A DNA stretch of 64,000 nucleotides from the NCBI GenBank assembly GCA_024640255.1, contig JAHEFI010000002.1:1-64000 (forward strand), in the 5' to 3' direction. The stretch is from Bacteroidota bacterium (GTDB lineage Bacteria; Bacteroidota; Bacteroidia; Chitinophagales; Chitinophagaceae). The notes below the pieces were generated by a model. It had not been told where the DNA came from and made no database searches. It worked only from the letters and a program-made list of their open reading frames with translations. The position numbers were made by a program, and so were the translations under genes. Positions 59,346-63,795 of this stretch are shown here, piece by piece (position 1 is the first letter of the stretch; each line of letters opens with the position of its first letter).

Positions 59346-62078
59346 CTATTCTATCACTGGTTGTAACCATCTAGTGATATATTCTAAAGATTGATTTTTT
59401 CTTTTTGAATAATCTTCTACTTGATCTTGTTGAATTTTACCTAATCCAAAGTACTGGCTTTGTGGATTTGCAAAGTACCATCCGCAAACACTAGACGCTG
59501 GATACATCGCCAAGCTTTCTGTTAAACTAATACCAGTATGCTCTTGACCATTTAATAATTCAAATAAAGTATACTTCTCGGTATGATCTGGACATGCAGG
59601 ATATCCTGGTGCAGGTCTGATACCAACATATTGTTCTTTGATCAATGATTCATTATCTAATTGCTCGTCTTTTGCATAGCCCCAATAGTGTGTTCTGGTT
59701 TGCGCATGCAAGTATTCTGCAAAAGCTTCAGCTAATCTATCTGCTAAAGCTTGTAAGATAATTTTATTGTAGTCGTCGTGATTTTCTTCAAAGGCTTTGA
59801 TATGTTTTTCAATGCCATGAATAGTTACAGCAAACGCACCTAAATAATCTTCTTTATTTTCTGAAGCTGGACAAATAAAATCTGCTAAAGAGAAATTAGG
59901 CTGACCTGCTGCTTTTTTAGATTGCTGTCTTAAAAAATGCAATGAAACTTCTTTGCCATTATTATTTAAAATAACATCGTCTTCTTTGGCAGTTGCTGGC
60001 CAAAATCCAATGGCTCCTTTTGCTGTTAACCATTTTTCTTTGATAATGGTATTTAAAAGGGTAGTAGCGTCTTGGTATAATTTACTCGCTACTTCACCTA
60101 CTTTTTCATCTGTTAAAATAGCAGGGAAATTTCCGTGTAATTCCCAAGCAATAAAGAATGGCTTCCAATCTATATAAGGAACCAATACAGATAAATCATC
60201 TATTGTAATGGCTTTGTTACCCGTAAAACTTGGAGGGGTTACTTTGAAATTACTCCAGTCTATTACCATTTTGTTTTGTAAAGCTTCTTTGTAAGGTAAA
60301 CTTTGCTTTACTGTTTTCTTATTATCAAAATCTGCTTTCAGTTGCGTATAAGTGGTATCTAATTCTGATAAGAAGGTTTTTTTCTGTTCTTTGTTTAATA
60401 AAGATCCAGCCACTGTTACACTTCTTGATGCGTCTAATACATGAATTACACCATTTTCATATTCAGGAGCAATCTTCACCGCGGTATGCATTCTGGAAGT
60501 AGTTGCACCACCAATCATTAAAGGAATATTCATTCCTCTTCTCTTCATCTCTTTGGCAATATGCACCATCTCATCTAATGAAGGAGTAATCAATCCACTC
60601 AATCCAATAATATCCACCTGATGTTTTTCTGCTTCTGCTAATATTTTATCAGCAGGCACCATTACACCAATATCTATAATTTCATATCCATTACAACCTA
60701 ATACTACACCCACAATATTTTTACCAATATCATGCACATCCCCTTTTACAGTAGCTAATAATATTTTAGCGGGTCCTTTGGTTTCGCCATTAGGAGTAGT
60801 AGAAGCTAATTTGATTCTTTCTTTTTCAGCTTCAATGTATGGAGTTAATACTGCCACACTTTTTTTCATTACACGAGCGCTCTTTACTACCTGAGGTAAA
60901 AACATTTTACCTGCACCAAATAAATCACCAACTTGGTTCATTCCTGCCATCAAAGGACCTTCGATCACTTCTAATGGTGCACTATATTGTAACCTTGCTT
61001 CTTCTGTATCTTCTTCGATAAAATCTGTGATACCATTGATTAATGAGTGAGCCAATCTTTTCTCTACTGTGTCATTTCTCCAAGCTAATTTTATTTTATT
61101 GGCTTCTTCTGAAGATTGACCTGCATTTTCTCCACTTGCTTTTAAATTATCTGCATATTGAATTAATGCTTCTGTTGCTTGGTTATTATCGTTGTTTTTA
61201 TTTAGGATAACATCTTCGCAAAGATTTCTTAATACTGGATCAATTTCATCGTATACTGCTAACTGTCCTGCATTTACAATACCCATATCCATTCCAGCAT
61301 TTACTGCATGGTATAAGAATACTGCATGTATCGCTTCTCTTACTGCTTCGTTTCCTCTAAAAGAAAAAGATACATTCGAAACACCACCACTTACTTTTGC
61401 TAATGGCATTTTTTGCTTAATGATTCTAGTAGCTTCAATAAAATCTACCGCATAGTTATTATGTTCTTCTATACCAGTTGCTACTGCAAAAATATTAGGG
61501 TCAAAAATGATATCCTGTGGATCAAATCCAACCTTCTCTACTAATATCTTATAAGCTCTTTCACAAATTTCTACTTTACGATCTTTTGTATCAGCTTGCC
61601 CTACTTCATCAAATGCCATAACAATTACCGCTGCACCATAAGCTTTACAAATATGTGCTTGTTCTATGAATTTTTCTTCTCCCTCTTTCATAGAGATAGA
61701 GTTCACAATACATTTTCCTTGTACACATTTTAAACCTGCTTCGATGATTTCAAATTTAGAGCTATCAATCATCACTGGTATACGAGCAATATCTGGTTCA
61801 CTTTGTAATAAATTCAAATAAGTGGTCATGGCTTTCACACCTTCTAATAAGGCATCGTCCATGTTCACGTCAATAATTTGTGCACCACTCTCTACTTGTT
61901 GACGAGCAACTGATAAAGCTTCTTCGTATTTATTTTCTTTAATGAGTCTTGCAAATTTTTTGGAACCTGTTACATTGGTTCTCTCACCCACATTCACAAA
62001 ATTGGTTTCTGGACGAATCACCAAAGGTTCTAATCCAGCTAATCTTAAATAAGGCTTAATAATTATCGTTTCGCTCAT
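59346..62078 (-). CDS. metH: Methionine synthase, folate/B12/activation part of a two-gene MetH
   Basis: 910 aa. Carries the pterin-binding domain ([20 protein letters not shown]), the cap/B12 region with [20 protein letters not shown] (the cobalamin-ligating DxHxxG) and the AdoMet-binding activation domain ([18 protein letters not shown], then [17 protein letters not shown]). The homocysteine-binding domain is encoded by the upstream gene; four bases separate its stop from this ATG. A frameshift is unlikely because both open frames are clean and the two-gene form is known in Bacteroidota. Product: transfers the methyl group of methyltetrahydrofolate through B12 to homocysteine. Confidence 0.95.
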
Positions 62079-62082
62079 AATA

Positions 62083-63096
62083 TTATATTGTTGTATCAAG
62101 AACAGGCAAACTTCTTGGAGTTAAATTTCTAACATTGTCTGCCATTTGTTTAATATGATCGGGTGTTGTACCACAACATCCACCAACTATATTTACAAAT
62201 TTATTCTTTGCCCATTCTTCAATAAAATGTCCTGTCTGATGTGGTGCTTCATCGTATTGTCCCATTGCGTTAGGTAATCCAGCATTAGGATAAGCCGAAG
62301 TATAACATGAAGCAATTTGAGAAAGCTCTTCAATATGTGATCTCATTTCTTGCGCACCTAATGCACAGTTTAAGCCTACACTTAGCGGCTTGGCATGTTC
62401 AACAGAAGTATAGAATGCTTCTAATGTTTGTCCACTTAAAGTTCTACCAGATGCATCTGTGATAGTACCACTAATCATTATAGGTAATTCTGCTTTACCT
62501 ATTTTTCTATAATATTCCTTGATTGCAAAAATTGCAGCTTTTGCATTTAAGGTATCAAAAATGGTTTCTACTAATAATACATCTACACCTGCTTCGTCTA
62601 ATCCTTTGATTTGTTCTGTATAAGCTACTACTACTTCATCAAAAGTAACTGCTCTATATCCTGGATTATTTACATCAGGAGACAAGCTCAATGTTTTATT
62701 CAAAGGTCCAATAGATCCAGCTATATATTTCTCTGAAGTATTGGGATGTTTTGATTTGTATTGATTAATCGCTTCTCTTACGCATTTTACTGCAGCAACA
62801 TTTAACTCGTAAGCTAATTCTTGCATATCGTAATCTGCCATGGCAATAGAAGTACTACTGAAAGTATTGGTTTCAATTATATCTGCACCTGCTTCTAAAT
62901 ATTGTAAATGTATACCTGTAATAATTTCAGGCTGTGTAATACATAATAAATCGTTATTACCTTTTACATCCGTATGCCAGTTGGCAAAACGCTTTCCACG
63001 ATAATCTTCTTCAGTTAATTTATGACGCTGTACCATGGTACCCATGGCGCCATCAATTACTAAAATTCTTTTTTTAAGTTCCTCTCTTATTGACAT
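62083..63096 (-). CDS. metH: Homocysteine S-methyltransferase domain protein (N-terminal part of MetH)
   Basis: 337 aa. Zinc-binding homocysteine domain of methionine synthase. [17 protein letters not shown] opens it, with [20 protein letters not shown], the zinc Cys in [14 protein letters not shown] and the Cys pair in [12 protein letters not shown]. It ends in [18 protein letters not shown] and the folate/B12 half starts four bases after. An S-methylmethionine-dependent alternative is less likely because the large MetH half follows. It is preceded by a structured leader and a strong promoter. Confidence 0.94.
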
Positions 63097-63110
63097 ACCT
63101 ATATTTTTTA

Positions 63111-63225
63111 TGCAGCTGCCTAAGGAGAGATTTTAATAAAGGGGAGTCGATTGGTGTATCGTTTATTAGTTCTTTTCTCCTTACGGATGGCAGGTTGAAC
63201 AATAAACAAATCCCACCTGCAGTTG
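63111..63225 (-). promoter_or_regulatory. Structured leader of the metH operon, candidate riboswitch
   Basis: The message starts with ~130 untranslated bases that can form an H-type pseudoknot: GCAGGT (63220-63215) with ACCTGC (63195-63190), and GTTTATTGTTC (63207-63197) with GAACTAATAAAC (63172-63161, one bulge). It can instead form a competing hairpin: CTGCC plus TAAGGAGA (63193-63189, 63183-63176) with TCTCCTTA plus GGCAG (63128-63116). The two folds share bases 63190-63193. A ligand such as S-adenosylmethionine or cobalamin is plausible for metH, but no known riboswitch core (SAM-I box, B12 box) was recognised. Confidence 0.55.
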
Positions 63226-63230
63226 CGGAG

Positions 63231-63262
63231 CAAAGTTAGTATAGAACTAGTTTGTAGCCAAA
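63231..63262 (-). promoter_or_regulatory. metH operon promoter (-33/-7)
   Basis: The minus strand has TTTG at 63262-63259, 20 bases of spacer, then TAACTTTG at 63238-63231, a good match to the Bacteroidota consensus. Transcription would start at about 63225, leaving ~130 bases of leader. Confidence 0.7.
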
Positions 63263-63264
63263 TA

Positions 63265-63795
63265 CTATTGGTAAGCAGCAGTTACTTCAACATTGATCTT
63301 ATCGGCCACCATTTTGATTAAAAGGCCACCAATTCCAAAATCTTTCAAAGTCACGGTAAATTTAGCAGTAGCTATTGGATTACCACCTTTGATTTCTATT
63401 GTACCATTGGTCTGCATTGCTTTATTGACACCATGAACCTGCATATTACCTTTTACGGTGATTGGGTAAACGCCATCTTTCTTGAAATTAACACTAGAAA
63501 TATTAATGATTTTGCCATTAAAGAAGGCTCTTGGAAACTTATCACTCTCTACATATTCTTCATTAAAATGCTCTTGCATTTTATCCATATCAAAAGTAAA
63601 ATCTTTCATAAGCATGATGAAACTCAAGTCACCATTAGCTTGTAGACGACTCACTGCTTTTTTGTTGGTTGCATCAATATCATTATCATCCACTGCAATA
63701 AATCTTACTACTGCTGTTGAAGTACTATAATTTTTTTGAGCAGCTACGGTTCCGCTGATCATTAAAAGGCTTAAAGCAACTACTAGGTTTTTCAT
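63265..63795 (-). CDS. YceI family protein
   Basis: 176 aa exported lipocalin-like protein that binds polyisoprenoids in homologues. Signal peptide KNLVVALSLLMISGTVAAQ is followed by SRLQANGDLSFIMLMKDFTF, ESDKFPRAFFNGKIINISSV and KGNMQVHGVNKAMQTNGTI, typical of YceI. I use the ATG at 63795; the extra N-terminal residues from 63816 are outside the signal. It lies 3 bases from the metH promoter box and 66 bases after the recR stop. Confidence 0.9.
   Translation of the reverse strand: MKNLVVALSLLMISGTVAAQKNYSTSTAVVRFIAVDDNDIDATNKKAVSRLQANGDLSFIMLMKDFTFDMDKMQEHFNEEYVESDKFPRAFFNGKIINISSVNFKKDGVYPITVKGNMQVHGVNKAMQTNGTIEIKGGNPIATAKFTVTLKDFGIGGLLIKMVADKINVEVTAAYQ

Follow-up and report, generated by a model that had tools for sequence, protein, structure and literature searches.

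The leader of the methionine synthase gene metH in the window, i.e. the whole stretch of 64,000 nucleotides that was analysed, contains an H-type pseudoknot and a mutually exclusive alternative fold. That the pseudoknot is a conserved cis-acting element with such an alternative is considered virtually certain, and that it is a riboswitch, at present a candidate, very probable; it is treated here as a candidate class, one that varies the SAM-II/V type. Comparison of related leaders supports, at the level of sequence, the two helices of the pseudoknot (P1 and P2), the link to metH and, in close relatives, the co-variation of both alternative hairpins. A new or divergent metH-associated riboswitch had been suggested by the first-pass annotation, and the proposal is strengthened by the lack of any Rfam match, by the covarying helices, by the linkage to metH and by the conserved, co-varying competing hairpin. 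The pseudoknot presumably binds a metabolite; the reading to which we lean, with some reserve, is a cis-acting translational OFF riboswitch for metH, with S-adenosylmethionine (SAM) as the most likely ligand.

The leader (63097-63230, minus strand, like all the features below) is located between an ORF for a YceI-like protein (PF04264) and a split metH. The latter, at 59346-63096, is made up of two overlapping ORFs: metH-N (62083..63096), the presumed regulated gene, encodes the homocysteine methyltransferase domain (PF02574, NCBIfam methionine synthase), and the next ORF, metH-C (59346..62099), the pterin, B12-binding and activation domains (PF00809, PF02607, PF02310, PF02965; TIGR02082). Upstream of the leader, a TTTG element (63259-63262) and the box TAACTTTG (63231..63238) form a promoter-like arrangement, TTTG-N20-TAACTTTG, which we take to be a promoter, with TAACTTTG as its -7 box, by its agreement with the consensus.

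P1 begins 10 nt past this box and pairs GCAGGU (63215..63220) with ACCUGC (63190..63195) over 6 bp. It is followed by AUUU (63208..63211), a putative third strand in the P2 groove, kept in relatives and assigned this role by analogy with U8-U10 of SAM-V. P2 joins GUUUAUUGUUC (63197..63207) to GAAC-U-AAUAAAC (63161..63172) in 11 bp, with U63168 bulged. A small hairpin, P3, reads UCC-GUAA-GGA in the window (63178..63187); its length and sequence vary among relatives, and in some it is absent. Further downstream, UUUAUUA (63134..63140), the P4 strand, can pair with 63162-63168 as an alternative to P2, over 7 bp only in the window and more strongly in many relatives. The 3' strand of the competing 13-bp hairpin, or anti-sequestor (63116..63128), pairs with 63189-63193 and 63176-63183 in blocks of 5 and 8 bp, shares four bases with the P1 3' strand and stops 20 nt short of the AUG (63096-63094). 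P1, P2 with its bulged U and the 13-bp hairpin had all been described in the first-pass annotation and were found again as stated, including the four shared bases and the distance of about 20 bases from the start codon. A start-codon hairpin, or sequestor (63082..63129), contains the AUG; it co-varies among relatives, and in the window alone it is not significant, folding no better than shuffles (z 0.26, 113/200). Nor does the folding energy of the single leader reach significance (z -1.42; 17 of 200 shuffles are equally stable), so that the case for structure rests on comparison.

The distribution of the element was evaluated starting from 212 relatives, from whose GTDB genomes 80 metH loci were kept. 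The core pattern was found upstream of metH in 75 of these; among the others, one leader (L065) was matched later with a longer spacer, one (L020) is truncated by the contig end, and L071, L075 and L076 gave no motif match. A model built from 34 sequences (R1) detected the motif in 147 of 195 sampled Chitinophagaceae genomes, once in each except G192, where two matches at contig ends look like one split locus. Six matches, all in Chitinophagaceae, were obtained in a class-wide sample of 295 genomes, and 84 of 298 genomes of an order-wide sample matched at E <= 0.01, nine of them belonging to the sister families f107 and f111. In 143 of 145 matches metH-N starts less than 400 nt further downstream and in the same orientation; the 145 include at least three places with two entries each (window/L105, L064/L197 and L080/L164), and the two exceptions are a match at a contig end (L138) and one with metH 460 nt away (L180). 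At L294 and L303 the motif stands ahead of metH-C alone, as judged by eye against the window protein. The motif was found only before metH parts. The members were collected by core-derived patterns or by the model, and related genomes are not independent events; the invariance of the core is thus partly a matter of ascertainment, since patterns and model were made from that core.

Two side observations concern individual records. In G638 the motif occurs twice ahead of metH, in copies that are not identical (L297 and L298), one of them at a contig end, reflecting either a second metH or mixed strains. L016, from a record titled Comamonas sp., has a metH-N 91% identical to that of the window, and the title looks wrong.

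A putative promoter ahead of the pseudoknot, noted in the first-pass annotation, is a recurrent feature of the leaders: 133 of 142 have a TAnnTT(T/C)G box, again identified by its consensus, no more than 32 nt ahead of the motif, against 3.2% of shuffles, at a median distance of 6 nt from the model start, and TTTG is found 17-23 nt before the box in 55 of the 142. If the box is a promoter, its position directly upstream of the motif would place the aptamer at the 5' end of the mRNA.

The alignment of related leaders, suggested for Chitinophagaceae along with the original proposal, revealed that P1 covaries and that P2 carries compensatory changes at 4 of its 11 pairs. An alignment of 98 distinct rows (A2) contains, over the whole structure, 70 cells in which both partners have changed, against 17.1 on average in shuffles, and its covariation score is 0.121, against 0.048 in shuffles; neither value was reached in 500 shuffles. 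Sliding the partners reduced pairing from 96.9% to 25-46%, and changes on both sides were seen at 4 of the 6 P1 pairs. A second alignment, of 42 distinct rows (A3), agrees (35 cells versus 9.6). The counts for P1 lean in its favour, because the alignments were fitted to it.

P2 was never part of the model used for alignment. Its row set was derived from 179 loci, reduced to 170 distinct ones, three spurious A6 rows and L105 (the window itself) being dropped; L216 could not be parsed, leaving 169 readable rows (168 for pair 14-60). The compensatory changes affect pair 14-60 in L201, pair 15-59, which is A-U in L219 and C-G in four f107 leaders, pair 17-57 in L224, and pair 24-49, which is U-A in seven leaders (five f111, two f107). 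Pairs 18-56 to 23-50 and the bulged U are invariant. Mismatches were found at pair 24-49 in 11 rows, at 14-60 in 4 of 168 and at 16-58 in one.

Membership of a known family was evaluated by covariance model searches, and none was recognised; the first-pass annotation, too, had seen neither the SAM-I core nor the B12 box. No Rfam family reached its gathering score in the window with the whole Rfam 15 library, no riboswitch of Rfam 15 (SAM-I, SAH, cobalamin, THF etc.) matched the leader (62950-63400) at E <= 10, and the SAM-II (RF00521, RF01726) and SAM-V (RF01826) models matched none of ten relatives at E <= 5, nor L079 and L189. A known riboswitch family, as defined by model, was ruled out by the lack of matches in window, leader and relatives. 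RF01726 is absent from 195 Chitinophagaceae genomes, in a search that detected its positive control; RF00521 and RF01826 were each found in 0 of 117 genomes, results that prove little, as the positive controls were silent too. A dedicated model of 20 Bacteroidia SAM-II RNAs (R2), used with filters off and no positive control, missed the motif in 38 of 38 loci. As homology to SAM-II is not supported by covariance model, its link with SAM-II/V is based on the topology and on about 12 core bases, and as R2 misses the motif and RF01726 is absent from the family, the motif was not filed as SAM-II or SAM-V. No published description of it was found in the portions available of the literature on SAM-II and SAM-V, on Bacteroidetes and Chitinophagaceae riboswitches and on metH; the same holds for the excerpts of PMC2864571, PMC6429828, PMC11109978, PMC8632094, PMC2704228, PMC2258182, PMC10853860 and PMC9373788.

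In the mechanism proposed, P1 and P2, with AUUU in the P2 groove, would fold the 5' end of the mRNA into a compact H-type pseudoknot, which a ligand, most likely SAM, would stabilise. With ligand bound, P1, P2 and P3 would stay formed, and the strand upstream of the start codon would fold back over the AUG, so that no methionine synthase is made. Without ligand, the P1 3' strand and P3 would pair with that upstream strand in the 13-bp hairpin, the P2 3' strand could pair downstream in P4, and the start codon would open. Presumptive in this scheme are the small-molecule ligand and its identity as SAM, as well as the triplex in the groove and the direction in which control works; the OFF logic, taken by itself, is held with good confidence.

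The two alternative hairpins were evaluated in 52 distinct close relatives by comparing native strand pairs with pairs swapped among leaders and with shuffled ones. For the anti-sequestor the energies are -15.2 (native), -13.7 (swapped) and -7.2 (shuffled) kcal/mol, the native pair being better than its own swaps in 46 of 52; for the sequestor they are -11.9, -10.5 and -7.7 kcal/mol, with the native pair better in 40 of 52. A control strand pair beats its own swaps in 16 of 52 only. Judged from these sequence comparisons, the 13-bp hairpin is not a coincidence in close relatives, and the co-variation of competing and start-codon hairpins suggests that ligand means OFF. An opening-energy gap calculated earlier proved length-biased and was replaced by a comparison with shuffled aptamers. 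The start region is cheaper to open when the real rather than a shuffled aptamer is freed in 47 of 47 close relatives and in 81 of 107 other leaders (the window, as L105, included), the remaining 26 going the opposite way; the mean gains in accessibility are small (0.413 to 0.429 and 0.463 to 0.502). In the 11 shortest leaders the opening-energy gap is opposite (median -0.88 kcal/mol), and there the start would be covered by P2 itself. Five f111 leaders, and also L189, L203 and L224, have a P2 3' strand that extends into the AUG, and in L141 and L163 the AUG is inside a copy of that strand; these designs favour repression on binding.

The P4 strand is the element on which an opposite logic could be built. 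In 123 of 131 leaders its first base lies 30-62 nt past that of the P2 3' strand; it scores 18.5 on average against 13.1 in shuffles, is equalled by at most one of 30 shuffles in 82 of 131, and changes along with the P2 strand in L208, L154 and L219. In long-leader lineages P4 might act as an intrinsic terminator, prevented by the ligand-bound pseudoknot, which would then turn the gene ON. Among 98 long leaders, 18 have a strong U-run (6 of 7) after this frequent P4 strand, compared with 13 of 260 control windows, and 45 have a weaker one (5 of 7), compared with 42 of the 260, so that the 18 leaders could terminate instead, which counts against a simple OFF reading. The ON logic is nevertheless judged improbable, as the strong U-run is missing from 80 of the 98, the window's lineage and the short leaders are without one, several U-runs, by inspection, adjoin sequence dispersed in 6 of 8 genomes searched, and the start-codon designs of other leaders favour OFF. 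Mimicry of the start codon in the P4 strand shows only weak enrichment (scores >= 18 in 10.6% of 123, against 4.8% in shuffles); neither this mimicry nor a terminator role of P4 was accepted as general, each holding in some leaders only. The dispersed sequence is an intergenic repeat containing GTTGCGTCGCACACTT, often located between pseudoknot and metH (e.g. in L206 and L231). It is dispersed in G126, G195, G242, G314, G091 and G301; exact copies of GTTGCGTCGCACACTT number 74 in G126 and 34 in G195, with none in G000 and G229 and none for the reversed control.

Evidence on the ligand was sought in the distribution of SAM-I (RF00162), which was found in 93 of 117 Chitinophagaceae genomes and coexists with the motif in 70; none was found in the window's own genome, which is 87% complete. 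A clear ORF follows SAM-I at 7 of 10 loci inspected, and these seven ORFs are presumably metY/metB-like or homoserine dehydrogenase genes. Among the 48 Chitinophagaceae genomes lacking the motif, 27 were inspected for metH, and metH-N is present in 26. SAM-I lies directly upstream of metH in two of them, at about 142 nt in G017 and about 72 nt in G253 (L269/L270 loci); the other 24 leaders, two of them shorter than 30 nt, contain no Rfam match at gathering score. This replacement points to SAM and is the best evidence that the motif reports it. On the whole, SAM is regarded as the likely ligand.

The same pseudoknot might have been turned to another methionine-cycle ligand (SAH, decarboxylated SAM, homocysteine, methyl-folate or cobalamin), a replaced contact having changed its specificity. 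In such a case a Chitinophagales class would have arisen on the SAM-II/V pseudoknot, with the end of the pocket rebuilt by an A-U pair in place of A-A and with no turn before P2, to sense a metabolite other than SAM; working beside SAM-I in the same cells, it would set methionine synthase apart from homocysteine supply. The U which replaces A50 of SAM-V in every sequence read, the absence of the turn, the 70 genomes in which SAM is already sensed by SAM-I and the restriction of the motif to metH parts are in keeping with it, but the adenine and sulfonium contacts still have their counterparts, the same U is present in two of 20 RF01726 RNAs, located before metK, and in two genomes SAM-I stands in for the motif ahead of metH; both the change of ligand and this fuller scenario are regarded as rather unlikely. 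Recognition of the pseudoknot by a protein, e.g. MetH itself in an autoregulatory leader or an RNA-binding protein, would agree with the single target, but fits poorly with a compact pseudoknot of near-invariant interior and SAM-II/V-like core, and with its replacement by SAM-I in two genomes, and is considered quite improbable. The P2 arms also form an imperfect inverted repeat (GUUUAUU-GUUC / GAAC-U-AAUAAAC), the symmetry expected of a DNA operator; this explanation, to which hardly any weight is given, was rejected because the spacing between the arms varies by tens of bases, and in addition the element follows the promoter box and P1, which is interleaved with the arms, covaries.

If SAM is bound, the translational OFF riboswitch favoured here would add to the pseudoknot classes for this widely sensed metabolite one in which a residue of a known ligand contact is altered, and could serve as a natural experiment on which elements of the SAM-II/V pocket are indispensable. 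If the ligand is another, it would exemplify ligand switching on a known scaffold, like the spermidine variants of SAM-I described in the excerpted text of PMC10853860. In either case the candidate is a frequent regulator of metH in Chitinophagaceae, unrecognised by Rfam.

Compared with known systems, SAM-I likely responds to the same signal and holds the metH leader in G017 and G253, but its fold is unrelated and it precedes other genes at the loci inspected in the family. SAM-II (RF00521, RF01726) has the same topology as the motif: the H-type pseudoknot of P1 and P2 is present, as indicated by covariation, and the element precedes a gene of SAM and methionine metabolism, metH-N or, at L294 and L303, metH-C. 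The SAM-II RNAs with long loops listed for Bacteroidetes, in the part of PMC2864571 available, correspond to RF01726. This family was found in 20 of 148 genomes of other Bacteroidia, 19 of them above cut-off, and its RNAs read AUUUG-aaCUG-AUUGC-AACC..GCUAAAgCAG, sharing with the motif AUUUG followed by AUUG, AACC at the P1 3' strand and CUAA with the bulged U. Downstream of all 20 (L081-L100) lies a gene which, from its N-terminus, we take to be metK. In three of the RNAs (L094, L097 and L099) AUUUG and AUUG are separated by a long insert. Two of these, L094 and L097, carry U at the aminoacyl contact, so that this U need not exclude SAM.

SAM-V (RF01826), according to the excerpts of PMC6061858 and PMC2704228, is likewise an H-type pseudoknot with a UUU third strand, and shares translational control, proposed for the motif, and methionine genes. 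In both, as far as the excerpts allow, A-U-U-G-n-n-C pairs with G-n-n-C-U-A-A to give a 4-bp lower P2 with a bulged U. In the SAM-V structure, as excerpted from PMC6061858, U8-U10 form the third strand, the adenine is held by U47 with U8, U20:A48.U9 lies beside the sulfonium, and the aminoacyl end is held by A50 with A18. The contacts U8-U10, A18-G21 and C46-A49 have counterparts in the motif in the same order, and those of the adenine and sulfonium appear, from the sequence, to be kept: the U bulged between C and AA is read in 169 of 169 rows, and AUUU precedes P2 in all of them but a few variants. The first-pass annotation, in which no SAM-II or SAM-V core had been recognised, is to be corrected on this point: part of that core, the AUUU strand and UUG/C-U-AA with the bulged U, is present, and in another part U takes the place of A50. 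This U is found in 169 of 169 rows, in a parse that required CTAAT, also present in the left-out row L216. SAM-V occurs in different bacteria. It has a small P3 of 3 bp after P1, to which UCC-GUAA-GGA of the window may correspond; P3 of the motif is variable or absent in relatives. SAM-V has a 3-nt turn where the upper P2 of the motif continues as 4-5 Watson-Crick pairs, the 3 nt between AUUUG and AUUG being themselves paired.
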